Positions 264 through 24,475 of a stretch of 24,629 bases of DNA are shown here, piece by piece. Origin of the DNA: a virus. The notes beneath the pieces are model-generated. The model was not told where the DNA came from. It ran no database searches and saw only the letters and a list, made by a program, of their open reading frames with translations. The translations under genes were made by a program, and so were the position numbers. Position 1 is the first letter of the stretch. Every line of letters starts with the position of its first letter. Where the stretch lies: positions 1-24,629 of the IMG/VR virus record IMGVR_UViG_3300018065_000071, one strand, 5' to 3'.

Positions 264-276
264 CGTGATAGACTGC
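264..276 (+). promoter_or_regulatory. Putative late promoter, extended -10 (copy 1 of 3)
   Basis: The 13-mer CGTGATAGACTGC contains an extended -10 element (TG, one base, TAGACT). Near-identical 13-mers lie before the portal (2735) and capsid (6260) genes. No -35 hexamer is conserved between the copies. Transcription would begin near 281, directly at the ribosome binding site of the terminase small subunit gene. It is a promoter by inference only. Confidence 0.5.
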
Positions 277-293
277 ACGAGGAGGGCTGAATC

Positions 294-707
294 ATGCCAC
301 AAGACGCCCCATTGGACGAGCGCCAGATTCAAGCGGCACGCATGGAGGCCCAAGGCGTGGTCATGCGCGAAATCGCGGAGGCGGTCGGTGTGAACCGGAA
401 GACCCTCTACCGGTGGCGGGACAACCCCGCGTATCCGGCGCTTGTGGCTGCCCTCCTCGATGACGCGCACCGGTCTGCCCGTGCTCGCCTGCGGATGGGG
501 GTCACGGACGCGGCGACCCGTATCCATGCTCTCATTGGCTCGGAAGATGAGCGCATCGCCTTGTCCGCTGCGCAGACCCTATTGGACCGCGCGGGCCTGC
601 CCAAGGCCGAACGCATGGAGCTGTCCGCCGACGTCCGCGCCTCGGGTAGCGTGACGGTCGACCCCTCGGACGAGCTCGCCGCGATGCTCGCCGGGGGTGG
701 CGAATGA
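294..707 (+). CDS. terS: Terminase small subunit (HTH DNA-binding)
   Basis: A 137-residue protein starting at ATG 294, eight bases after a GGAGGG ribosome binding site. Residues about 9-42 form a helix-turn-helix: a Gln/Ala-rich first helix, then REIAEAVGVNRKTLYRW as turn and recognition helix, typical of phage terminase small subunits and related homeodomain-like proteins. The central part (about 60-100) is helical and probably oligomerises; the C-terminus is short and acidic. In this family the protein recognises the packaging site and loads the large subunit. The location directly before the large terminase gene supports the call. Its stop overlaps the next start (ATGA at 704-707), so the two are translationally coupled. 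The family match is from pattern, not alignment. Confidence 0.8.
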   Translation: MPQDAPLDERQIQAARMEAQGVVMREIAEAVGVNRKTLYRWRDNPAYPALVAALLDDAHRSARARLRMGVTDAATRIHALIGSEDERIALSAAQTLLDRAGLPKAERMELSADVRASGSVTVDPSDELAAMLAGGGE

Positions 708-877
708 ACGCGCCACTTCGGGTGGACCCCGACCGCTTGACGCGCCTCGTGTGGGGGGCGGTTGTAGCGGCGCTGCTCGCCGCTGTGCTGCTCGCCGGTG
801 GCGTGGGAGCCCTCGGGTACACCCTCGGGCATCGGGACGGCTACGCGGCAGGTATGGGGCTCTGCTCGTGGACATAG
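704..877 (+). CDS. Small single-pass membrane protein in terminase cassette
   Basis: A 57-residue frame starting at ATG 704, which overlaps the stop of the terminase small subunit gene (ATGA), and ending at TAG 875-877. A strongly hydrophobic segment of about 25 residues (LVWGAVVAALLAAVLLAGGV and onward, about residues 14-38) forms one transmembrane helix; the N-terminus is short with a few Arg residues and the C-terminus is about 19 residues. Third positions are about 80% G/C in this frame, better than in the frame that would extend the large terminase upstream. It could be a holin or antiholin-like protein, or another membrane-acting small phage protein; only the transmembrane nature is visible. 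Confidence 0.7.
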   Translation: MNAPLRVDPDRLTRLVWGAVVAALLAAVLLAGGVGALGYTLGHRDGYAAGMGLCSWT

Positions 878-2718
878 GGCTGCGGCTCGTGTCTCGACCC
901 GACGCCCCACCGAGCCCACCCGCGTGGGCGTCCTACTACGACCGCCTCCGATGGGCGCTGTACGTCGTGCGGCACGGGTGCGACGTGCGCCCCGAGATGA
1001 TGGACGTGTGCCGACGTCTCGTGGCCCACGAGGTCGCGCAGCGCAAGGAACACGCGGGGCACCCGCTGCGCTTTGTCGAGCTGTGGAGGCCCGAGTGCCG
1101 GACTTGTTCGGACCCGACGTGGCCCCGCCTCGCGGATGGCCGACTCGGCAACGTCGCCGGCAAGCCGTGCGGGCGGACCGGCCCCCATGATGAGCAGCCC
1201 ATGCACGGGGTGTCGATGGAGCACACGGGCGGCGGCGTGCACCGGTGTCCGGCCTGCGGGGTCGAAGAGGAGCGGACAAGCCAGCGGGAGCTCTTGCGGC
1301 GGTTCCTCGAGTCCTCGGCGCTGTACTTCGTGGCCCTCGGCGGCAACCGGTCGAGCAAGTCGTGGAGCGGGTCGGTCTGCGGTGCAATAACGGCCATGGG
1401 TGCCGACCACCCCGACGTGCGGGAGTTCCTGCGGCGCAACGGTCTCGGGGCCGGTCGACTCCAGGCGGCGCCGGCCCTCGTGCTCGCCGGTTCCATCACC
1501 AACGACGACAGCCGGGACTACCTGCGGCCCATCTACGACACGCTCTTGCCCTCGGATTGGGCGTGGTCGGCTCGATTCGCGGCGCAGACGGCCGCCGCGT
1601 GGATGCCGGGGTCGGGGCTCGGGCTACCGGGGTCCATCCTCTTCAAAACCACCTCCGGCGCCGATGCAAGCAAGCGGTGGCAGGGGACGTCCTCGCCTCT
1701 CGTCCACAACGACGAAGACCACGGAGACGTGGAAGTGCTCCGCGAACAGGTGCGCGCCGTTGCAGACCAGGGCGGCCGGTGGCTCGGGACGTTCACCCCG
1801 ACGCGGGGCAAGTCGGCTGCGGTGGTGGACATCCTGTTCCGCGACCCTCCGCGGGCAGCGGGTGAGGTTGAGGTCTACAGGCTCGACCCGACTGACAACC
1901 CGATGATTGACGGCGACGCCATGGCCCGGTGGCTCGGGTCGATGACCGAGCGTGAGAGGCGCGTGCGTCGGTTCGCGGAGTTCGTGCAGCTCGAGGGGCT
2001 GGTGCATCCCACCTACGACGAGGCCGTCCACGTCATCGAGGCACTACCCGACGCCGAGATGGCCGATTGGCCCCGAGTCGATGGCGCCGACTTCGGATTC
2101 CGGGCGCCGTTCGCGTACATTTGGGGCGCGGTCGACCCGCGCGGGACCTTGCACATCCTCCGCGTCCGCTATCAGGCGAAGGTCGGCACCGACGCGCACG
2201 TGTACGCGGTCCTGCGGCACGAGTCGTGCCCCGATTGTTGGCCCGGGCCCGAGGACTGGCCCGCCGACCGGTGGTGGGACCGGAGATTCATGCGTGCCGA
2301 GCAATGCGGGACGTGCGACGGCACCGGGCGCCGACTTCCCGAACCCTACGCCCGTGCAGCCGACCCGGCGGACGCGGACGCGCGCGACCGGTGGGCGGCC
2401 CTCGGACTGCCGACCATCCCCGCAAACAAGGCCCGGCGCGAGGGGTTCCAAGCGCTCGACCGCTTGCTTGAGGTGCAGGACGGCCGCCCCGGTCTCGTCA
2501 TCCATGACCACCCGAGCACAGCACCGCTCCGGGTCGAGCTGCGGGAGCTCGCCTGGAAAGACCCGACGGCGGGCAAGCGCTCGCAGCTCACGGTCCACCG
2601 AGAGACTGAGGTAGCCGGGCCTGACCACGCATGGGACGCGCTCCGCTACCTCGTGATGGAGGCCCGACGGCTACGTCTGCTCGCGTGGGATACCGACGCC
2701 CCGGATGAGGAGTCGTAG
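868..2718 (+). CDS. terL: Terminase large subunit (packaging ATPase and nuclease)
   Basis: A 616-residue protein from GTG 868, which overlaps the end of the small membrane gene. The frame is open back to GTG 697, but that part is the shadow of the membrane gene. The Walker A motif is GGNRSSKS (residues 158-165, Lys164). The Walker B-like acidic pair is in HNDED (282-284) and the coupling motif TPTRGKS follows at about 311. The RNase-H-like nuclease begins with Asp408 (GADFGF) and ends with DHAWDALR (Asp586, Asp590). It powers DNA packaging and cuts concatemers. Unusual points are an N-terminal extension of about 155 residues with Cys pairs (77/80, 127/130, plus Cys101) and a CPDC/CGTC pair (454-457, 480-483) inserted in the nuclease domain, both resembling zinc-binding knuckles. 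Confidence 0.92.
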   Translation: MDIGLRLVSRPDAPPSPPAWASYYDRLRWALYVVRHGCDVRPEMMDVCRRLVAHEVAQRKEHAGHPLRFVELWRPECRTCSDPTWPRLADGRLGNVAGKPCGRTGPHDEQPMHGVSMEHTGGGVHRCPACGVEEERTSQRELLRRFLESSALYFVALGGNRSSKSWSGSVCGAITAMGADHPDVREFLRRNGLGAGRLQAAPALVLAGSITNDDSRDYLRPIYDTLLPSDWAWSARFAAQTAAAWMPGSGLGLPGSILFKTTSGADASKRWQGTSSPLVHNDEDHGDVEVLREQVRAVADQGGRWLGTFTPTRGKSAAVVDILFRDPPRAAGEVEVYRLDPTDNPMIDGDAMARWLGSMTERERRVRRFAEFVQLEGLVHPTYDEAVHVIEALPDAEMADWPRVDGADFGFRAPFAYIWGAVDPRGTLHILRVRYQAKVGTDAHVYAVLRHESCPDCWPGPEDWPADRWWDRRFMRAEQCGTCDGTGRRLPEPYARAADPADADARDRWAALGLPTIPANKARREGFQALDRLLEVQDGRPGLVIHDHPSTAPLRVELRELAWKDPTAGKRSQLTVHRETEVAGPDHAWDALRYLVMEARRLRLLAWDTDAPDEES

Positions 2719-2734
2719 CGCACCCGCGCCCCTA

Positions 2735-2747
2735 CGTGATAGTGTGC
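2735..2747 (+). promoter_or_regulatory. Putative leaderless late promoter before portal (copy 2 of 3)
   Basis: CGTGATAGTGTGC contains an extended -10 element (TG, A, TAGTGT at 2740-2745). Only six bases lie between the end of the -10 and the portal ATG at 2752, so the expected transcription start is at or next to the A of ATG. No Shine-Dalgarno sequence is present between the terL stop and the ATG, which fits leaderless translation. The 13-mer matches copies at 264 and 6260. No convincing -35 was found. Confidence 0.55.
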
Positions 2748-2751
2748 TCCC

Positions 2752-4164
2752 ATGTCAAGCCCCATCGCCCGTCTCTCGCTCCCGGTCCGCGTCCTGCGGG
2801 CACTGTCGGTCGTGACAACCGAGCCCCCTCGGGACGAAGACGCGTTCGTGGCGGGGTCCGACTTTGCGATGGCCGAGGCCGTCCCGGTCCCCTACGACCC
2901 GAAACGCGCCGCGTCTGCGCTCATCGCGAACCCGTGGTATTGGCGCGCGGTCGCCATCCGGGCAAGCAAGCTCGCCGCGCTGCCGCTCCAGGTCCAGCGG
3001 CAAGGCTCCGACGGCTGGGAGCCAGCCGAGGACCACCCGCTCTCCGCGCTCCTCCACAAGCCGAACACCTCACAGACGGCCCTACAGTTCCGGGTCCAGC
3101 TCGCCACCGACCTGCTCCCGGCCGGGAATGCCTACGTGCTCCCCGCGGGGTGGTCGGTCCCCGGCACCGCCCCGGCGGCGCTCCTGCTCCTCGAGCCCGC
3201 ACGGGTCACCATCACACCAGGGCATGACGGGTCGCCGCTTGCCTACGTGTACGACCAACAGGGCGTCACGGTCAACTACTCCCCGGACGTCATCGGCCAC
3301 ATCAAGTACGCATCGGCGGGGACGGGTCTGTTCCGGCTGTATGGGACCGGCGAGGTCCAGCCGATGGATCGCGACATCGCCGCAGACGTCGCGCTCGCCG
3401 CGCAGATGGCGCGGAAGTCGGCACGAGGTCGACCGGATGCCGCCTACGTGCCCCGCGACCCGAAACAGACCTGGGGCCGTCCGCAAGTCCGGGACATGCA
3501 GACGCAGATTGACCGCATCCTGCGCGAGCAGACGGGCGGGGTCGCGGTCATGTCCGGTGCGGGCCAGTTTGAGGCCATCGACTGGACCATCGGCGACCTC
3601 GGAGGCATTGAGGCCCGCGAATACGCCCGGTCTGTCGTGGTCGCGGTTACGGGCGTGCCCCCCACGCTCCTCGGGCTCCAGTCAGCCAACTACGCGACCG
3701 CGGAGATGGAGCGCAAAACCTTCATCACGGACACGCTCGCCCCGCTCGCTTCGTTGCTTGATGACGCGCTGACCGACCTTGCCCGGCGCCTTGGGTTCCC
3801 CGACGTGCGCATCCGCCACGTCATCCCCGAGACAGACGACGGCCGCGCGGAACGGCTCGCACGGGTGCAAATCCACGTCGCAAACGGCATGGCCCCGGCC
3901 GATGCTTACGCCTACGAGGGCTTTGACGACGCGCCCGAGGTCGCAGGGTTCGGGGTTGCGGTTGACGCTCCCGGTGCACCAGAGCCCGAGCCCACGGACG
4001 ACGGCGCCGACGACGAGGCCCCCGACGACGAAACGCGCGCCGACATCGCAGTCCAAGCGCAGGCCCTCCGGTCAATGCTCGTGGACGCGGACCCGGACGA
4101 CGAGGACGACCTTCGTACCGAGCTGTCGGTGCTGCTCGACATGCTCGGGCCGGTGCTCGGATGA
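2752..4164 (+). CDS. Portal protein (HK97-type)
   Basis: A 470-residue protein from ATG 2752. The segment ANPWYWRAVAIRASKLAALP (about 59-78), followed by HPLSALLHKPN and a long middle domain with KSARGRPDAAY and ATAEMERKTF, is the layout of HK97-type portals (usually about 400-500 residues). Twelve copies form the ring at one capsid vertex through which DNA passes and on which the connector is built. The C-terminal 60 residues are very acidic (runs of Asp and Glu at about 415-460). The gene lacks a Shine-Dalgarno sequence and follows a -10-like element at a distance suited to a leaderless transcript. Its stop overlaps the next start (ATGA, 4161-4164). Confidence 0.9.
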   Translation: MSSPIARLSLPVRVLRALSVVTTEPPRDEDAFVAGSDFAMAEAVPVPYDPKRAASALIANPWYWRAVAIRASKLAALPLQVQRQGSDGWEPAEDHPLSALLHKPNTSQTALQFRVQLATDLLPAGNAYVLPAGWSVPGTAPAALLLLEPARVTITPGHDGSPLAYVYDQQGVTVNYSPDVIGHIKYASAGTGLFRLYGTGEVQPMDRDIAADVALAAQMARKSARGRPDAAYVPRDPKQTWGRPQVRDMQTQIDRILREQTGGVAVMSGAGQFEAIDWTIGDLGGIEAREYARSVVVAVTGVPPTLLGLQSANYATAEMERKTFITDTLAPLASLLDDALTDLARRLGFPDVRIRHVIPETDDGRAERLARVQIHVANGMAPADAYAYEGFDDAPEVAGFGVAVDAPGAPEPEPTDDGADDEAPDDETRADIAVQAQALRSMLVDADPDDEDDLRTELSVLLDMLGPVLG

Positions 4165-5405
4165 CGGCGGGGTTGCCCTACAGCCGCAGCGACGGCGGCA
4201 AGGCGCCAAGCCGGTACGATGACATCGACCTCAAGGCAACCCGGCCGATGAAACGGGCAGCCAAGCGCGGAAAGGACCTCCGCGAGAAACACCGCCGCGG
4301 CGGGACGCGCAAGGGCCTCGCGATGGCCAACCGCATCCTCTCGGGTGAGCGCATCCACCCGGACAACGTGCGGGACATGTTCGCCTTTTTCGAGCGGTTC
4401 GCGTCTGAGGCGCAAAAGCAGCGCGGCACCGAGCGGTGGGACACGTCATCAGACAAGGTGGGACCGCTGCGCATCGCTTGGGACCTGTGGGGCGGCGACT
4501 CGGGCCGGGCCTGGAGCCGCCGCAAGCGGGCCGCCCTCGACCGCGCCGACGAGCAGGACAAACGCTACACGCTCGAGGTCTGCGGGCCGGTGGTGCGTGC
4601 CCTCGAGGTGCAAGCCGGCGAAACTCCCCGCGGCGCCTACTGGCGTGCGTGGCTTGATGCCGTCCAGCGCCCCACCGAGCGGGCCATCCGGGCGCAATGG
4701 CGCGCAGGCCGGGGGGGCATCTTCCCCGCGCAGGCGCAGCGCTACGCGGACCGTGTAGGCCGTGTGCTCAGCGGCCAACGGTCGGTCACCCGCGCGGACG
4801 TCACCGACGAAGAGCTCCGCGCCATCCTGATGTCAGACGCCGAGCTGGTTGCGGTGCGGGAAGCATTCGACGATGAGACGGTAGCCCGCGGGGTGCGCCG
4901 GGCCTACGCGCTTGTGGCGCGCCGCCTCATGGATGATCTCGACTTTGACCCGACGCTGGACCCGACCGAACAGGTCATCGCGCAGATGGTGACGCAGGTG
5001 CAGCAGGTCACGAAAGACCGCATCGCCAAGCTCGTCCGGTCTGCGCTCGCCGAGGGGGCAAGCGTCGGCGACCTCCAGCGGGCCATCATCCTCGACCAGT
5101 CGTTTAGCCCGGCGCGTGCCCTCACCATCGCCCGAACCGAGACGGCCCGCACCGTGTCGGAGGGGCAGGAGATGGCGTTCAACCAGGCCGCCAACTTGGG
5201 CGTCGAGTTTATGAAAGAGTGGGTGAGCAGTCGCGACGATGCCGTCAGGCCTACTCATGTCGCGCTCGACGGCCAGAAGCGCCAACCCGGCGAGCCTTTC
5301 GACTCCGAGAGCGGGGCAAGCGGCCCCGGTCCGGGCCTGTTCTACGTCCCCGAAGAGGACATTAACTGCCGGTGCGTTGCCCGCCCGGTCGACATCCGAG
5401 GGTAA
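4161..5405 (+). CDS. Mu-F-like minor head protein
   Basis: A 414-residue protein coupled to the portal gene by an ATGA overlap. The C-terminal third carries the Mu gpF-like signature: ARTETAR at about 324-330, then DDAVRPTHVALDGQ, and a closing NCRC motif (Cys403, Cys405) near the end. Members of this family (Mu gpF, SPP1 gp7) are minor head morphogenesis proteins that associate with the portal and may enter the host with DNA. The N-terminal two thirds are rich in Arg and Lys, helical, and not recognised; the first 60 residues are particularly basic, which could mean DNA contact. The position between portal and protease is the classic one for this family. Confidence 0.85.
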   Translation: MTAGLPYSRSDGGKAPSRYDDIDLKATRPMKRAAKRGKDLREKHRRGGTRKGLAMANRILSGERIHPDNVRDMFAFFERFASEAQKQRGTERWDTSSDKVGPLRIAWDLWGGDSGRAWSRRKRAALDRADEQDKRYTLEVCGPVVRALEVQAGETPRGAYWRAWLDAVQRPTERAIRAQWRAGRGGIFPAQAQRYADRVGRVLSGQRSVTRADVTDEELRAILMSDAELVAVREAFDDETVARGVRRAYALVARRLMDDLDFDPTLDPTEQVIAQMVTQVQQVTKDRIAKLVRSALAEGASVGDLQRAIILDQSFSPARALTIARTETARTVSEGQEMAFNQAANLGVEFMKEWVSSRDDAVRPTHVALDGQKRQPGEPFDSESGASGPGPGLFYVPEEDINCRCVARPVDIRG

Positions 5406-5407
5406 CC

Positions 5408-6238
5408 ATGGATACCGCACTTTCGCCGATTCTCGTCACCTGTACCCCCGCCGATGTCGTCCGCGGCTGGATTGGGCAAGCCTCCCGCGCGGGGTTGTCT
5501 CCCGAGGTGGTGCCCCGCATGGCGGACGCGCTCGGCGGCACCATCGAGGACGTCCACGCAATCGCGCGGGGCTCGCTGCCTCACCTCGGGCAGCTCCTCG
5601 ACGGCGACCTCGTGCAACGACTCGCCGGGTCCGTGGGGGCGTCCCCGCTTGACCTCGCCTACCGGTCGGTCCTCCGCTACGACTCGACCGGCGCACCCGA
5701 GCCCATCGAGGACGACGAGGACAAGCCGCAAGGCTACCGCTTCGTGATGAGCGACGCGCAGCCCGACCGCGCCGACGACATTGTGGAGCAGGGATGGGAC
5801 CTCCGCGAGTTCATCGCAAACCCCGTGGCACCCTACAACCACAACTACACCGCGCCCCCCATCGGCCGGTGGGAAGACGTCGCGGTTGAAGGCGGCGTGC
5901 TCCGCGGTACCCTCATCCCGACCCCGGTGCAGTCCTACCCGCTGTCGCTCACGGTCGCGGCGCTCCTCGAGGCCGGCACCCTGCGCACGTGCTCCGTTGG
6001 GTTCAGGCCGTCGGCGGTGCTCGCACGGTCCTCGCTCCCCGAGGACGACCCGCGCTATGCAGACCGGGGCTACGTGTACGCGCTGCCCCGTTTGTTGGAG
6101 TGCTCGCCTACCCCTATGCCGATGAATCCGCGCGCCGCCCGCCTGCGCACCACGGACGCGGAACCTGTCAAGCGGTCGGCCCCCTCGGGGCTGCCGTGGT
6201 CCCCCTCTCCCATCTCGTCCGGGCTCCCCTGGACTTGA
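5408..6238 (+). CDS. HK97-type prohead protease
   Basis: A 276-residue protein from ATG 5408, three bases after the stop of the Mu-F-like gene; an upstream in-frame ATG at 5372 lies inside that gene and lacks support. The protease core starts at about residue 107 with FVMSDAQPDRADDIV, then YNHNYTAPPIGRW with the likely catalytic His145, and LRTCSVGFRP with the likely nucleophile Ser196. The 50-residue spacing of His and Ser fits herpesvirus-assemblin-like (U35) phage proteases. It removes the capsid N-terminal delta domain during maturation. The first 90 residues precede the usual protease domain and are unrecognised, so the protein is longer than many family members; the C-terminus is Ser/Pro-rich. 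Confidence 0.85.
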   Translation: MDTALSPILVTCTPADVVRGWIGQASRAGLSPEVVPRMADALGGTIEDVHAIARGSLPHLGQLLDGDLVQRLAGSVGASPLDLAYRSVLRYDSTGAPEPIEDDEDKPQGYRFVMSDAQPDRADDIVEQGWDLREFIANPVAPYNHNYTAPPIGRWEDVAVEGGVLRGTLIPTPVQSYPLSLTVAALLEAGTLRTCSVGFRPSAVLARSSLPEDDPRYADRGYVYALPRLLECSPTPMPMNPRAARLRTTDAEPVKRSAPSGLPWSPSPISSGLPWT

Positions 6239-6259
6239 CACCCCCACCCGCCTGGGTCC

Positions 6260-6272
6260 CGTGATAAGGTGC
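6260..6272 (+). promoter_or_regulatory. Putative late promoter before capsid gene (copy 3 of 3)
   Basis: CGTGATAAGGTGC lies 42 bases before the capsid ATG and contains an extended -10 element (TG, A, TAAGGT at 6265-6270). It matches the 13-mers at 264 and 2735. Transcription would start near 6277 and give a leader of about 38 bases. A dedicated capsid promoter would fit the high demand for this protein. Confidence 0.5.
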
Positions 6273-6314
6273 AGGCGACCGCCCATGCTGGGCATTCACC
6301 CGAACGGAGGCATC

Positions 6315-7835
6315 ATGCCCACCACACAGGCCGAGTGGAACGCGTTTGCTGCGACCACCGCACAGAAGGCCCAGCAGCTCGCCGAGAAGGTCGAGCAGGG
6401 CGAGCGCAACCGCGCCGAGCAGACCGAGCAAATCAAGCGCATGGCGGACGACCTCCGCACCGTGCGTCAGGAGCTCGCCGAGGCCAAGGCCAAGGCCGCC
6501 GACCCCCTCGCCACCCTCGGCGGCACCGACCGCGAGCTCGTGCAGCGCTTCGTCGACACCGACGGCAAGGTCTTCCTCCGCGGCCACGAGGGCGGCGCGT
6601 CCGAGCGCTTCCGCTCCGACTCCCCCGGTCTGCTCGCGAGCCAGCCCGTCAACGACGTGCACCGCGACCTCATCGACGCCACCGAGCAGCTGTACGTCCT
6701 CTCCGTCGCCCGCCACGGCCGGGACGCCTTCGACCACCGCGGCCAGGGCTACCGCCTGGACGTCGTGAAGGGCGAGAAGGCCGCATGGGACCGCGTGCAA
6801 CGCGCATGGTCGCGGATGCCCGCTCCCATCCGTCGCGCCTGGGATTCGCAGAACGGCAACGGCGGCGAGTTCATCCCGGAACCGCTCCTCGCCTCGCCGA
6901 TGTGGCAGGTGGAAGCCTACGACCCGGACGGCCTTCTCGGACTGTTCGAGACCATCACCATCAACAGCGAATCGGTTGAGCTCCCCGTGGGCACCGCCTA
7001 CCCGTTCCCCTACAAGGGCGGCGGGGCAGTCGGTGACAACCCGGCCGCGCTGGCCAAGTCGAGCGTGGACACCGACAAGCTCACCCTGACCGCAAGCCCG
7101 ATGTACTCGATGGTGCTGGTGCACGAAGACGCCGCCGCCGACAGCATCGTGGCCGCCTTCCCGTTCATCCGGTCGGCTATCTCGATGTCGCTCGCCATGG
7201 GCCGCCGCCTGTGCATCATGAACGGCGACACGGCCGCCAGCCATCAGGACGACCTCGCCAACTGGGACCTGCGCGGCTACTTCGGTGCGGTGGACGCCGG
7301 AAGCATCGACTACCGCCGGACCTTCAAGGGTCTTCGCGCGATGGCGCTGGACGACTCCAACGGTGTGGACCGCTCGACGCACAGTCTGACCACGCTGTTT
7401 GCCGACATCAACGCCGTCGGTGGCCCCCGGTCGGTGCCGCAGGACATGCCCGTCATCACCAGCCCCGAGGGCTACCTGACGAACTTCGTCAACCTCTCGG
7501 GCATCGTGAGCGCCAACGACTACGGCAACCGCGCCCCCATCGCCTCGGGCGAGGTCGCGAGCATCGCCGGTCACCCTATCCTGATGACCGACGCCATGCC
7601 CGCCGACCTGAACGCGTCCGGTGTGTACGACAACAGCACGACCAACCTCACCGGCTACGTCGTGTTCAACCGCCGCATGTTCCGAAACGTCATGCGCGCC
7701 GGGGCGACTGTCGCCTTGCAGAACGATATCACCATCGGCGGCACCTACCTGCGGGCTCGCCAGCGGGTCGGCTTCAAGGACATGACCAAGTCTTCGGACA
7801 AGGCCGTGCGCTACGCCTACAACATGAGCAAGTGA
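6315..7835 (+). CDS. Major capsid protein (HK97 fold with N-terminal coiled-coil delta domain)
   Basis: A 506-residue protein. ATG 6315 is chosen because GGAGG lies four bases upstream; a GTG at 6261 in frame would start inside the promoter-like motif. Residues about 11-61 form a charged coiled coil rich in Gln, Glu, Lys and Ala, the expected delta/scaffolding domain that the upstream protease removes. No separate scaffold gene is seen, consistent with a fused scaffold. The rest (SQNGNGGEFIPEPLLASPMW, then GTAYPFPYKGGGAV, and a C-terminal YLRARQRVGFKD) follows the HK97-like capsid layout. It forms the icosahedral shell. Position after the protease and before connector genes supports the call. 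Confidence 0.9.
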   Translation: MPTTQAEWNAFAATTAQKAQQLAEKVEQGERNRAEQTEQIKRMADDLRTVRQELAEAKAKAADPLATLGGTDRELVQRFVDTDGKVFLRGHEGGASERFRSDSPGLLASQPVNDVHRDLIDATEQLYVLSVARHGRDAFDHRGQGYRLDVVKGEKAAWDRVQRAWSRMPAPIRRAWDSQNGNGGEFIPEPLLASPMWQVEAYDPDGLLGLFETITINSESVELPVGTAYPFPYKGGGAVGDNPAALAKSSVDTDKLTLTASPMYSMVLVHEDAAADSIVAAFPFIRSAISMSLAMGRRLCIMNGDTAASHQDDLANWDLRGYFGAVDAGSIDYRRTFKGLRAMALDDSNGVDRSTHSLTTLFADINAVGGPRSVPQDMPVITSPEGYLTNFVNLSGIVSANDYGNRAPIASGEVASIAGHPILMTDAMPADLNASGVYDNSTTNLTGYVVFNRRMFRNVMRAGATVALQNDITIGGTYLRARQRVGFKDMTKSSDKAVRYAYNMSK

Positions 7836-10979: not shown

Positions 10980-11947
10980 TGGCCAGTGTCCTACTTGGGC
11001 GGAATGCCGCCGTCGGCATCGGGTTCGAGAGCACCGAGGGCACCGCTGTAGCGGCTGCGCTGTGGGCGCGTCTCGCCTCGCTGTCTCTCACCGCCGTGTC
11101 GAACCGCGTGCGCATCGACGACCTGTCTCTGGGCGGCACCGGCTACCTACAGGCGCGGTACCTCGAGCAGGTCGACGTGTCCGGCAGCATGGAGATTATC
11201 TCCTACTACAAGGGAGGCGCGTTTGCGTCGTTCCTCCGCGCTTGCATCGGCGGGACGTGGGTGGACTCGGGCGCCGGCCCTTACACGCACGTCCTCGATC
11301 CCGGTGCGGAGCCTCCCGCGGTCACGTTCCGCACGGCGCGGGACACCCTGTCCTCGTCCGGCGCGCTCCAGAAGGGCGACGTCATCGCCGGGGCACGGGT
11401 CACCTCCGCGACCATCTCGGCCGAGACGCCGGGGCTTCTGCGGCTGTCGCTCAACTTCGTAGCGATGAGCTCGACACCGGGCAGCGCCCCGACGCACTCG
11501 CTTGCAGTCCACGACGACCCCATCGTGTACCACCAGGGCGGCACCTGGGGATGGAACTCGGCGAACTACACGCTCCGGTCGCTGTCGCTGGAGCTCGAAA
11601 ACGCCGTGGAAGGTCTGCGCGGCTTCGGGTCGAGCAGCATCAACGGCGCCGCGGTGACGGGCATCCGCAACGCTCGCCTGACTGCGACCCGCTACAAGAC
11701 CTCCGACGACTGGGCAGACGCGCAGACCGCGGGCACCGAGAGCGACGGCGCAATCACGTTCACCAGCGGGACCGATTCGTTCCGGATCGTTCTCTTCAAC
11801 TCGCTCATTCCCGAGGGGGTCGCGCTTGACGCACAGTCCGTCGGGTTGGTCGAAGAGTCGGCCATCTTTGAGCCGCGGGACGACGGGACCGGCCCCGTGT
11901 TGCGCTTCACACTCGTCAACGACGACGCGACCGCTGAGGCTTCGTGA
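10979..11947 (+). CDS. Major tail tube protein
   Basis: A 322-residue protein whose ATG shares a base with the preceding stop (TAATG). It opens with LLGRNAAVGIGFESTEGTAV, the usual start of large siphovirus tail tube proteins ('G...v.i..E...GT...'), then has LARYL/QVDVSGSMEI and GGAFASFLRACIG strands, and ends with an acidic beta-rich C-terminus (GPVLRFTLVND). Stacked hexameric rings of this protein form the tail tube. Location upstream of the chaperone pair and the tape measure is the conserved order in siphoviruses. At over 300 residues it is longer than minimal tube proteins and probably has an extra outer domain. Confidence 0.75.
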   Translation: MASVLLGRNAAVGIGFESTEGTAVAAALWARLASLSLTAVSNRVRIDDLSLGGTGYLQARYLEQVDVSGSMEIISYYKGGAFASFLRACIGGTWVDSGAGPYTHVLDPGAEPPAVTFRTARDTLSSSGALQKGDVIAGARVTSATISAETPGLLRLSLNFVAMSSTPGSAPTHSLAVHDDPIVYHQGGTWGWNSANYTLRSLSLELENAVEGLRGFGSSSINGAAVTGIRNARLTATRYKTSDDWADAQTAGTESDGAITFTSGTDSFRIVLFNSLIPEGVALDAQSVGLVEESAIFEPRDDGTGPVLRFTLVNDDATAEAS

Positions 11948-12435
11948 TGCTCGACCTTGCCGCACTTGCTGCACCGACGTGGGTGGAGACCGCGGGGCTC
12001 GGGCGTCGTCTCGACTTCGGGTGCATCCCGCTGTCCCCCGGCGACTTTGACAACCACGCGTCCACCCTCTTCGGGCTCGTGGCCGGGGTCGAGGGCGACA
12101 AGCCCGCGCGTGAGCCGACCGCCGCAGACCTGCAACACCTCCAGGTCATCGCGTGTCTGACGGTCCGTCATGTCCGCGCGCCGGGGGGCGAGTCGCAGCC
12201 GTTCCGCTTCGTGCTGGACGAGGGCGCCGAGGACCCCAGCGCGGGCCGCTTCTGGATTGGCCGGCTTCCCTCGCTTGAGGTGGGGCAGGTCGCCGGGGCA
12301 GCGCTCAAGGACTACATCGAGGCGGCTACGCGTGCGGCCCGATTTCGCCGCGGACCCGAGGACGGCGCACATGCTGGACGAGATGGCGAGGCGGTACGGT
12401 CGGAGTCCGGCGACGTGGCTGCGGCGGCCGGGTGA
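11947..12435 (+). CDS. Tail assembly chaperone, upstream frame (gpG-like)
   Basis: A 162-residue protein from ATG 11947, overlapping the tail tube stop in TGATG; GTG 11944 is a possible alternative. It contains a mixed helical and beta sequence (LDFGCIPLSPGDFDNHA, LQVIACLTVRHVRAP, FRFVLDEGAEDPS) and reads well until about residue 133. The last 30 residues (after RAARF) are compositionally different and look like a poorly constrained tail, while a well-formed frame continues one base over. This is the arrangement of lambda G/T-type chaperones, which coat the tape measure during tail assembly. It precedes the tape measure gene, as expected. Confidence 0.7.
   Translation: MLDLAALAAPTWVETAGLGRRLDFGCIPLSPGDFDNHASTLFGLVAGVEGDKPAREPTAADLQHLQVIACLTVRHVRAPGGESQPFRFVLDEGAEDPSAGRFWIGRLPSLEVGQVAGAALKDYIEAATRAARFRRGPEDGAHAGRDGEAVRSESGDVAAAAG
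12340..12348 (+). promoter_or_regulatory. Candidate +1 programmed frameshift site
   Basis: In the upstream chaperone frame the codons are CGA UUU CGC CGC. A ribosome with Phe-tRNA on UUU (12343-12345) could slip forward one base onto UUC and continue with GCC at 12347, entering the downstream frame. The UUU-CG context is the one used by influenza PA-X. The fused product would be 207 residues (133 from the first frame, 74 from the second). CCC-G at 12355 is a weaker alternative. Confidence 0.45.
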
Positions 12436-12571
12436 TGGGCCGGTCCTGTCGATGTGGCTTGACCTCCTGATGTGCCGGGTCTGCACGGCGGCGGGTGTCG
12501 ATTCGCAGCGGCAATGGCTACAGCGCAACGGCCAACACGTCATGTGGGTGATGCCCGCACCGGGGAGCTGA
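12371..12571 (+). CDS. Tail assembly chaperone, downstream frame (gpT-like)
   Basis: The frame one base over from the upstream chaperone encodes LDEMARRYGRSPATWLRRPGDG and then MWLDLLMCRV, the short helical pattern common in T-type chaperone extensions. It is most likely made as a +1 frameshift fusion that enters this frame near 12347. It could instead start independently at ATG 12371, which has GAGGA eight bases upstream and would give 66 residues (the coordinates listed). Two Cys residues and a Trp/Gln/Asn-rich C-terminus follow. The stop is one base before the tape measure ATG. The fused form would bind the tape measure while the short form recruits tube protein, as in lambda; this is by analogy. 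Confidence 0.6.
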   Translation: MLDEMARRYGRSPATWLRRPGDGPVLSMWLDLLMCRVCTAAGVDSQRQWLQRNGQHVMWVMPAPGS

Positions 12572-15661: not shown

Positions 15662-17193
15662 TGCCGTGGTCTACCGCTCTACTGTCCGCGCTTGCGGCCC
15701 CTGCGGCCCGGCTACGTCTGTCGCTCGCGAAGATTCCCGACTCGTGGGGACCGGGCACGTCTGCGGGCGCGGCTACGTCGGACCCGCGCACCGGGGTGGG
15801 GGGAATCTCGACGGATGCCGCCATCGCGATGTCTTCGCAGTCGGTTTCTGTGCCCCGCTGGACGACCAATCGCGGCACCGCACGGGTAGGGCTCGGCTCT
15901 ATCGCCGCGGGACATTGGGTGGCGCAGAACATGCCCCGCGGGTCGCTCGTTCAAATCGGCGGCCGTGTGGCGGGCATGGCGACGGCAGACCGTCTGTTCG
16001 TGGGGCAGCTCCGCGACCTTGAGGGAGTCGGACCTCGCACCATCGTGTCGGCCTGGGACATCCTCGCAAGCCTCGGGACGCAGACCGGGTGGTTTGCTGG
16101 ACTCGACTCGGGCGCGCTGTTCTACCACTGCGACCCAGACAGCATCAATACCCGGACCTTGGCGCTTCCTTACACCCCCGGGGATACCGCATTGGGATGC
16201 AACGCGGCCACGAATTTTGGGAAGCCAACCGGCGCAGACGGCGCGGTGCTCGTGACTCCTACGTCGGGTACAGACCCCTTCCTCCTGACCTTTTCGTCGC
16301 AGTCTGGTGCGGTGGTGTCGGGCGTGTCGGACGCGCACGGATGGGGTGCGCCATCTTCCGTCGCGGCCGTCGGGTCGACGGTGCAGGAGGTCGCGTGGAT
16401 GGCCGGGCACCCGCTCCGGGTCGCGCGGCGCATTCTCGCGAGCACCGGCAACGGCACGAACGGTGCAGACGACGTGTACCCGGCGGCGTGGGGATTCGGC
16501 TTGCCGGCCGCCTACATCGACACGGTGGGAATCAATCTGTGGGCTGGCCTCACTGACCCGAGGTCGGGTACGCATTCGGTGCGCATCGTCTCGACGACAC
16601 CGCAGGACGGTCTATCGTGGCTCGAGGGGCGCCTGTCCGCCTACGGGATGTGGCTAACCATGCGGCAAGGGCAGGTCACCGGCCGAGGGGCGGTCGACTA
16701 CGGCGGGTCACGTCCGCCGCTCGTGATGACGCTCGACCGGAGCCGCATCCTGCGGGGTGAGCCCGTTCGGTCGCTGTACGACAGCGGCAGCTCGGCCGAG
16801 TACGCGCGGACAGCAACCCGGTACGGGACCGTCTCGCCCACGACGGTAGAATCTGCGCTCACTCTCCCCGACACGCGGCCCGCGCACGGGTCCTACCTCA
16901 CCGACTACGGGGACGAGCTGTACCAGAATCAGGCGAACATCGCCGCACGGCTGAATCAACGGCTCGGCGCCTACCGTGAGCGTATCCCGGTGTCGGTGGA
17001 CGTCTCGTGTCGGCTCGACGCCGCGCAGCTATGCCCCGGTGATTGGGTGCTACTAAAACACCGGGGGGTCTGGACGCAGGACGACCTGGACGGCGGCCCG
17101 ACCGTTGCGATGGTCGCGGAGGTGTCGGTGGACTGGTCTGCGGGTGTCGTCACACTCACACTCTACATTCAGCCCGGCGAGGGGCTATACTAG
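15661..17193 (+). CDS. Tail hub / tip protein
   Basis: A 510-residue protein. ATG 15661 is chosen because it overlaps the preceding stop in TGATG; the in-frame ATG at 15574 lies inside the distal tail gene. The C-terminal half (LNQRLGAYRERIPVSVDV, LCPGDWVLLKHRGVWTQDD, VDWSAGVVTLTLYIQPGEG) has the look of gp27/hub-like barrels of tail baseplates, in which a 'PGD.V.l' turn is common. The middle contains WDILASLGTQTGWF and a 'MWLTMRQGQVTGRG' stretch. It would form the trimeric hub below the distal tail ring. No peptidoglycan hydrolase domain is visible. The call is by position, size and fold-like pattern. Confidence 0.55.
   Translation: MPWSTALLSALAAPAARLRLSLAKIPDSWGPGTSAGAATSDPRTGVGGISTDAAIAMSSQSVSVPRWTTNRGTARVGLGSIAAGHWVAQNMPRGSLVQIGGRVAGMATADRLFVGQLRDLEGVGPRTIVSAWDILASLGTQTGWFAGLDSGALFYHCDPDSINTRTLALPYTPGDTALGCNAATNFGKPTGADGAVLVTPTSGTDPFLLTFSSQSGAVVSGVSDAHGWGAPSSVAAVGSTVQEVAWMAGHPLRVARRILASTGNGTNGADDVYPAAWGFGLPAAYIDTVGINLWAGLTDPRSGTHSVRIVSTTPQDGLSWLEGRLSAYGMWLTMRQGQVTGRGAVDYGGSRPPLVMTLDRSRILRGEPVRSLYDSGSSAEYARTATRYGTVSPTTVESALTLPDTRPAHGSYLTDYGDELYQNQANIAARLNQRLGAYRERIPVSVDVSCRLDAAQLCPGDWVLLKHRGVWTQDDLDGGPTVAMVAEVSVDWSAGVVTLTLYIQPGEGLY
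17186..17191 (+). promoter_or_regulatory. Putative -10 element before tail tip gene
   Basis: TATACT matches the bacterial -10 consensus at five of six positions and overlaps the hub gene stop. Transcription would start at about 17198, next to a hairpin and 20 bases before the next ATG. No -35 of normal spacing was found. Confidence 0.35.
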
Positions 17194-17207
17194 GCGCGCA
17201 CCGCGCC
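17193..17207 (+). other. GC hairpin just upstream of ribosome binding site
   Basis: GGCGCG, loop CAC, CGCGCC forms a perfect six-bp, all-GC stem with a three-base loop. It ends one base before CGGAGG, the ribosome binding site of the gene at 17218. It could stabilise the 5' end of a transcript, pause RNA polymerase between hub and tip genes, or tune translation. It lacks a U-tract, so it is not a standard terminator. Confidence 0.6.
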
Positions 17208-24112: not shown

Positions 24113-24141
24113 GTAATACCGGAGCAGACACCGGGTGTCAA
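24113..24141 (-). promoter_or_regulatory. Early promoter for exonuclease-recT operon
   Basis: On the minus strand TTGACA (24141-24136), a 17-bp spacer, and TATTAC (24118-24113) match the sigma-70 consensus: -35 six of six, -10 four of six. Transcription would begin near 24106 and give a leader of about 42 bases before the first gene. An inverted repeat lies in the spacer and overlaps the -35, so a bound repressor should block it. Confidence 0.75.
24127..24139. promoter_or_regulatory. Putative operator in the divergent control region
   Basis: GACACC, G, GGTGTC is a perfect inverted repeat with six-bp arms that overlaps the -35 and spacer of the early promoter. The half-site GTGTC recurs at 24170-24174 and 24206-24210, about 35 bp apart. 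A second dyad, TCGGA-TTC-TCCGA, lies at 24173-24185. The likely binder is the HTH protein encoded from 24215. Confidence 0.6.
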
Positions 24142-24214: not shown

Positions 24215-24475
24215 ATGACCGACACAGCAACCACCGCGGCGCATGGTGCCGCAATCCGGGCAGCGCGAGAGGCGTGCTCACCCCCCATCCGCCGCGGCGA
24301 ACTCGCCGGACGGCTCGGAATCGGACACAGCACGCTCGCGGAGATGGAGGGCGGCAAGACCCGGTGTCCTCTCTCGCGAGCCGTCCAGATTGCGGACTAC
24401 ATCGGCAAGCGGTCCGGCCGTCCCGCGTGGCAGGTGCTCCTGGCCATCGCCTACCCGGCTGGGGGTGGAGCATGA
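24215..24475 (+). CDS. Cro/CI-type HTH transcriptional regulator
   Basis: An 86-residue protein from ATG 24215, eight bases after AGGAGG; the longer open frame upstream is a shadow of the minus-strand genes. Residues about 11-64 form an XRE-type helix-turn-helix: GAAIRAAREACSPPIRRGEL as first helices, AGRLGIGHSTLAEMEGGKT as the turn and recognition helix, then AVQIADYI. It lacks a cleavage/dimerisation domain of the lambda CI kind, so it is a short Cro-like regulator. It is divergent to the exonuclease-recT operon and separated by about 150 bp with operator-like repeats, so it most likely controls that operon and itself. Confidence 0.8.
   Translation: MTDTATTAAHGAAIRAAREACSPPIRRGELAGRLGIGHSTLAEMEGGKTRCPLSRAVQIADYIGKRSGRPAWQVLLAIAYPAGGGA

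Follow-up and report, generated by a model that had tools for sequence, protein, structure and literature searches.

What is the function of a short sequence that recurs in the gaps before the terminase, portal and capsid genes of a virus known here only from metagenome contigs? The window, by which we mean the whole stretch of DNA analyzed, is a fragment of 24,629 bases (IMG/VR virus record IMGVR_UViG_3300018065_000071; 68% G+C). Its + strand carries late genes, from TerS to the tail genes and an endolysin gene, and a leftward operon contains RecT and YqaJ. We propose that the recurring sites are probably extended -10 promoters that would be used by host RNA polymerase with a sigma-70-class factor, would need no -35 element and would give rise to separate, presumably late, transcripts. 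The sites and the genes around them are the following, MCP denoting the major capsid protein.

264-274, + strand: predicted TerS promoter, CG-TGA-TAGACT, hexamer at 269-274, predicted start at about 281-282
294-707, + strand: TerS gene (phrog_2538, 2.5e-11)
to 2718, + strand: TerL gene
2735-2745, + strand: predicted portal promoter, CG-TGA-TAGTGT, hexamer at 2740-2745, predicted start at 2752, the A of ATG (leaderless)
2752-4164, + strand: portal gene (PF04860, 2.2e-37)
4161-5405, + strand: Mu-F-like head protein gene
5408-6238, + strand: protease gene
6260-6270, + strand: predicted MCP promoter, CG-TGA-TAAGGT, hexamer at 6265-6270, predicted start at about 6277
6315-7835, + strand: MCP gene (PF05065, 5.5e-6; phrog_10, 4.7e-8)

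The repeated sequence and its conserved core

A preliminary description of this DNA had reported a 13-mer before the terminase, portal and capsid genes with no further whole copy in the window, and both statements were borne out. Exact matches stand at 264-276 (CGTGATAGACTGC), 2735-2747 (CGTGATAGTGTGC) and 6260-6272 (CGTGATAAGGTGC), in the gaps preceding the TerS, portal and MCP genes, whose identities were confirmed by profile matches, and these were the sole exact matches when both strands of the window were searched. Their number is above chance, as 100 dinucleotide shuffles yielded none (mean 0.00, largest 0), and the form CGTGATANNNT, observed three times in the window, had a mean of 0.21 and a largest count of 2 in the same number of dinucleotide shuffles. 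When two mismatches were allowed, the 13-mer was at chance level (10 found versus 8.85 expected), and a repeat search of the window returned nothing on the motif. Because the consensus was written after the sites had been seen, the relatives provide the fair, independent test.

Relatives were defined as IMG/VR contigs encoding a related portal, MCP or TerL. The analyzed set consisted of 31 contigs (294.8 kb, window included), among them near-identical copies of the window region, and counts are given as distinct contexts. Outside the set stood L004, which is identical to the window over the searched genes, the distant MCP matches L039-L045, and two further contigs, L062 and L068. Genes were called by our own script with codon scores trained on the window genes, and by these calls the contigs are 93.4% coding. 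In this set the 13-mer, which had been put forward as the promoter unit, was rejected as such: its R and TGC are not kept beyond the near kin of the window, and what holds in the relatives is the shorter form (CG)TGATANNNT, usually as CGTGATANNNT.

The heptamer CGTGATA was found in 31 distinct contexts, which share descent and so are not independent trials: 15 belong to portal, 11 to MCP, 2 to TerS and 2 to gene 17218, and the remaining one lies inside a window gene on the opposite strand. Thirty of these 31 contexts, and all 22 of those with CGTGATANNNT, are intergenic; a motif lying mostly inside genes, the outcome that the preliminary description had named as refuting its reading, did not occur. 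Single-base variants were mostly inside genes (CGTGATC 70/73, CGTGATG 89/97, CGTCATA 8/8 and CGAGATA 19/19) and thus behave as coding DNA. A repeat arising by chance or through coding constraint does occur in the family, as TGATANNNT precedes the tape measure gene in four relatives; that candidate was rejected as a promoter because the same bases encode NGD(S/N/K)V, in a frame also preserved in the window through different codons. As an account of the sites discussed here, such coincidence is extremely improbable, being contradicted by the empty shuffles and by conservation and gap location in the relatives.

Portal, TerS and gene 17218 sites

The site before the portal gene keeps a fixed place in the relatives. 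TGATANNNT was present in 16 of 16 distinct portal contexts, among them 674_1004, whose portal is 47% identical; this count omits portals less than 40 nucleotides (nt) from a contig end (724_7850, 776_5100 and 124_1857), although the site of 724_7850 is itself visible. Every context has the same T, G, A, T, A and final T, and the three N vary (0.49 to 1.0 bit versus 2.0), with C two bases before TG in 16/16 and G directly before TG in 15/16. TGn therefore stands directly before TANNNT in all portal contexts, as it does at the three window sites. In every context ATG follows the hexamer by 6-7 nt, which puts the first T 12-13 bases before ATG. Judged from these bases, an invariant TG, TA and T at a fixed gap from ATG is what a -10 box and a leaderless start would show. 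No Shine-Dalgarno sequence precedes the portal start, and with the predicted start at the A of AUG, translation should thus be leaderless. Among 274 distinct called gene starts, TANNNT was found at 5-8 nt from nine, all of them portals, a figure that undercounts portals because several were called at internal starts. In most of the clade B contigs inspected, a G+C-rich, terminator-like inverted repeat (GAGCCCCGC...GCGGGGCTC) lies just upstream of the portal site; it was not listed by the terminator scan.

At TerS, TGATANNNT was found 16-19 nt before the start in four of six distinct upstream regions, and 723_9064 has TACAAT without TG 17 nt before its TerS start. The preliminary description had named three sites, all of them exact, but had missed a candidate revealed by a generic promoter scan (3 found versus 1.2 expected).

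17186-17191, + strand: fourth candidate, TATACT without TG, 26 nt before gene 17218

In two relatives, CGTGATAGGAT and CGTGATACCCT stand 24 nt before gene 17218. Both TG-less hexamers, TATACT at 17186 and TACAAT in 723_9064, match TATAAT at 5 of 6 positions, which fits TG compensating for a poor hexamer, in two cases only. Directly after TATACT, the gene 17218 leader opens with a hairpin of 6 bp folded by AGGCGCGCACCGCGCC (17192-17207). The family-wide set of extended -10 sites that had been suggested is well supported, but "phage-wide" amounts to four places: TerS, portal, MCP and gene 17218.

The capsid site and its inverted repeats

The MCP site lies among three further elements.

6235-6240, + strand: TTGACA, a perfect match, overlapping the protease stop codon, 24 bases from TAAGGT
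6249-6277, + strand: inverted repeat H1 (CGCCTG...CAGGCG), with CGTGATA in its loop
6281-6293, + strand: hairpin H2 (GCCCA-TGC-TGGGC), in the MCP leader

TTGAC is kept upstream of MCP in most relatives. We did not accept TTGACA as the -35 of MCP, given its distance from TAAGGT and its overlap with the stop codon.

Among 24 MCP upstream regions, CGTGATA was present in 14, CGTGCTA in 8 and neither in 2. The last T of the hexamer (T6) is absent in 20 of the 24 contigs (it is present after TGnTA in 4), and 18 of the 24 lack T6 after TG and so do not have the extended -10 form. An extended -10 at all three sites, as originally described, was confirmed in the window; the MCP site is the weakest of them, and there the -10 reading is secure only in the window's clade, where a promoter is likely, and uncertain elsewhere. 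In clade A, 44-47 nt separate TAAGGT or TAGGAT from the downstream ATG, and H2 and a CGGAG site stand in this interval, an arrangement like that of the ordinary 44-48 nt leaders described below.

We therefore weighed whether the repeat at MCP is mainly an RNA or operator element, namely H1 with CGTGATA in its loop, rather than a promoter. The arms of H1 are CTCATGTTC/GAACATGAG in most relatives, CCCATG/CATGGG in 277_041 and CGCCTG/CAGGCG in the window's clade. Covariation was assessed in 20 of the 24 upstream regions (the window, 967_5972, 724_7850 and 674_1004 were omitted), with L035, which is out of register for H1 in the alignment, counted as unpaired or gap. H1 was paired in 91% of cells with 4 of 9 pairs changed on both sides, and H2 in 100% of cells with 1 of 5 pairs so changed. 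All 500 shuffles fell below the observed whole-structure covariation score and below the observed share of paired cells. Some H1 pairs are G-U, which leans toward RNA, although independent events are few. In 674_1004 (L036; 4710-4734) and 200_5427 (L035; 1285-1309), an unrelated 10-pair stem occupies the place of H1 without CGTGATA, and the frequent absence of T6 likewise speaks for an element other than a promoter. Conversely, the both-sided changes are common to few lineages, 50 of 500 shuffles attained as many, and all 500 had more of the further pair types. H1 is unusually stable in other relatives (0.5-2.9% of same-length windows are as stable) but not exceptionally so in the window (5.7%), 724_6942 (12%) or 967_5972 (13%), and the clade A loop holds the full TGATANNNT at an ordinary leader length. 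We regard an RNA or operator role for the MCP repeat as possible but doubtful. It concerns one site only, and the likelihoods of the alternatives therefore do not sum to one with that of the promoter explanation.

H2 was missing from the lowest-energy fold of the 724_6942 leader and, once coding bases were included, from that of the window leader. In this second fold GGGCAT pairs with ATGCCC in place of H2; the capsid start ATGCCCA and TGGGCAT, the 3' arm of H2, are complementary (window 6286-6320). A switch between H2 and start-codon pairing could control capsid translation.

Proposed promoter classes and comparison with known systems

At 15-19 bases upstream of the three window sites, the best -35 matches were 3, 2 and 2 of 6, the commonest chance values; a -35 is thus absent or weak in the window, in agreement with the earlier statement that none is shared. 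That statement did not extend to the relatives, where 9 of 16 portal contexts match TTGACA at 4-5 of 6 positions with a spacing of 17 or 19 (chance 11.5%).

Ordinary -35/-10 promoters exist in the same family. A scan of the 31 contigs for TTGACN-N17-(C/T)ANNNT gave 13 distinct sites, 7 intergenic and 6 inside genes. The seven intergenic sites have the form TTGACG-N17-CATA(C/G)T and lie 44-48 nt before called starts of small genes, six of them between TerL and portal; the leaders of this class have a hairpin at the 5' end and contain a CGGAGA site. In a 2-kb piece between TerL and portal, the generic promoter scan found 3 promoters versus 0.4 expected. An ordinary promoter also stands in the window.

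24113-24141, - strand: ordinary promoter of the leftward operon, TTGACA-N17-TATTAC, leader of 48 nt

The existence of such promoters marks the late sites, with TG present and the -35 absent in the window, as a distinct class. The small genes between TerL and portal in 168_469 (reverse of G004; L055, about 6000-7000), 277_041 and 129_288, each with its own TTGACG-N17-CATA(C/G)T and hairpin leader, resemble cargo (moron) genes; three of their products had no Pfam or PHROG match. At 24215-24475 of the window, a small HTH_31 protein diverges from the leftward RecT/YqaJ operon in a layout like that of an early control region. Immediately upstream of the tape measure gene, the gene at 11947-12570 seems to be continued in another frame (…NGQHVMWVMPAPGS), as in tail assembly chaperones that arise through programmed frameshifting. 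No tRNA genes were found in the window or in eight loci, and Rfam gave no match at the gathering threshold.

In extended -10 promoters, sigma regions 3.0 and 2 bind the TG and the hexamer. At the sites described here, the host holoenzyme would bind TG and TANNNT through these regions and open the DNA, and transcription would start 6-7 nt downstream of the hexamer. Separate transcripts would begin at TerS, portal and MCP, with a fourth arising from the candidate at 17186 at gene 17218. The TerS transcript would have a leader of 12-13 nt beginning at its Shine-Dalgarno sequence (GGAGG, 281-285), the portal transcript would begin at or beside the A of AUG and be translated without a leader, and the MCP transcript would begin near 6277, just before H2.

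Several observations weigh against this proposal. At MCP, as described above, T6 is absent in most contigs and the motif lies in the loop of an inverted repeat that covaries. No such site stands at the called TerS start of 277_041, and the partial -35 in 9 of 16 portal contexts means that a -35 may help in the relatives. When CG is disregarded, 14 of the 41 TGATANNNT contexts fall within called genes; these include the TerS site in each of three clade B contigs, placed in the end of the gene before. Finally, conservation of the CG before TG and of the A behind it is stricter than an extended -10 in general would demand, as judged by E. coli promoters.

This strictness also bears on whether the late promoters depend on a phage factor (sigma-like, an activator or a polymerase modifier) that reads CGTGATA or replaces the -35. 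CGTGATA is kept beyond the extended -10 minimum, and the late sites of the window lack a -35 while the family has the ordinary TTGACG-N17-CATA(C/G)T class and the leftward operon of the window has TTGACA-N17-TATTAC. However, Sigma70_r2 and Ogr_Delta matched none of 10 records, weak evidence as all are fragments; Sigma70_r4 matched only below cut-off in 2 of 10, the match in G006 being to a protein whose best Pfam match is HTH_31; and no shared upstream box was apparent by eye. Since the records are fragments, we keep a phage factor under consideration, but judge it rather unlikely. The host was sought through portal and MCP relatives in genome_contigs (84,980 species), where 62 candidate stretches per scan yielded none that was confirmed. 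Protein relatives in the phage collection gave a weak and mixed signal (portal 4 records, MCP 1, TerL 3, RecT 9, tail tube none), and no near DNA match was found there.

A fuller scheme, unlikely on present evidence, would make CGTGATANNNT a late-only class. A phage product would turn host polymerase to -35-less promoters, ordinary TTGACG-N17-CATANT promoters would serve small cargo genes and early genes, the portal mRNA would be leaderless and the capsid mRNA hairpin-led, and the position of the capsid -10 in the loop of a dyad would add a second control. If so, the contrast between a leaderless portal mRNA and a hairpin-led capsid mRNA would help to fix the proportion of one portal ring to hundreds of capsid subunits.

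The extended -10 explanation, which we prefer, provides a promoter map with predicted start bases for this phage family, together with a structural gene that kept its leaderless geometry as its protein diverged to the 47% identity noted above. With two clearly different promoter classes in one family, the choice between host sigma alone and a phage factor can be tested directly. Specialists may find the leaderless portal and the difference between the two classes worth testing.

The sites resemble extended -10 (TGn-TATAAT) sigma-70 promoters in that TG stands one base before the hexamer, TA and T are kept and the -35 is dispensable; they differ in that the A after TG and usually the CG before it are also kept. 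T4 middle or late promoters likewise form a class tied to one stage, with an element of the -10 type but no -35; they need phage factors, and no such factor was found in the 10 fragment records. A literature search by theme recognized no paper treating this phage family, and we do not claim that the motif is unpublished.

Three published systems offer comparisons of geometry. The asymmetric 13-bp start-associated sequences of Cluster K mycobacteriophages (consensus GGGATAGGAGCCC, 93 sites; PMC3203893) also lie only a few bases upstream of ATG in one orientation, about half with inverted repeats. Those sequences are linked to non-structural genes, whereas here the sequence is CGTGATARNNTGC, in four places at structural genes, with two of three sites at least 17 nt from ATG; our sites do not belong to that class. 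Cluster O mycobacteriophages (PMC4351075) have predicted leaderless SigA promoters with +1 on the first base of the start codon, as predicted for the portal, but the quoted PL6 has a -35 with a 17-bp spacer, and the genes are different and the phages unrelated. In TA-led leaderless genes (PMC3160421), TANNNT lies about 12 bp before the start codon with no Shine-Dalgarno sequence between. The portal sites, alone among ours, share this spacing and this lack, although the genes described there are from cellular genomes and here a single phage structural gene has TG in front. The sites thus fit extended -10 promoters, and the portal fits TA-led leaderless genes, a neat but ordinary kind of promoter.

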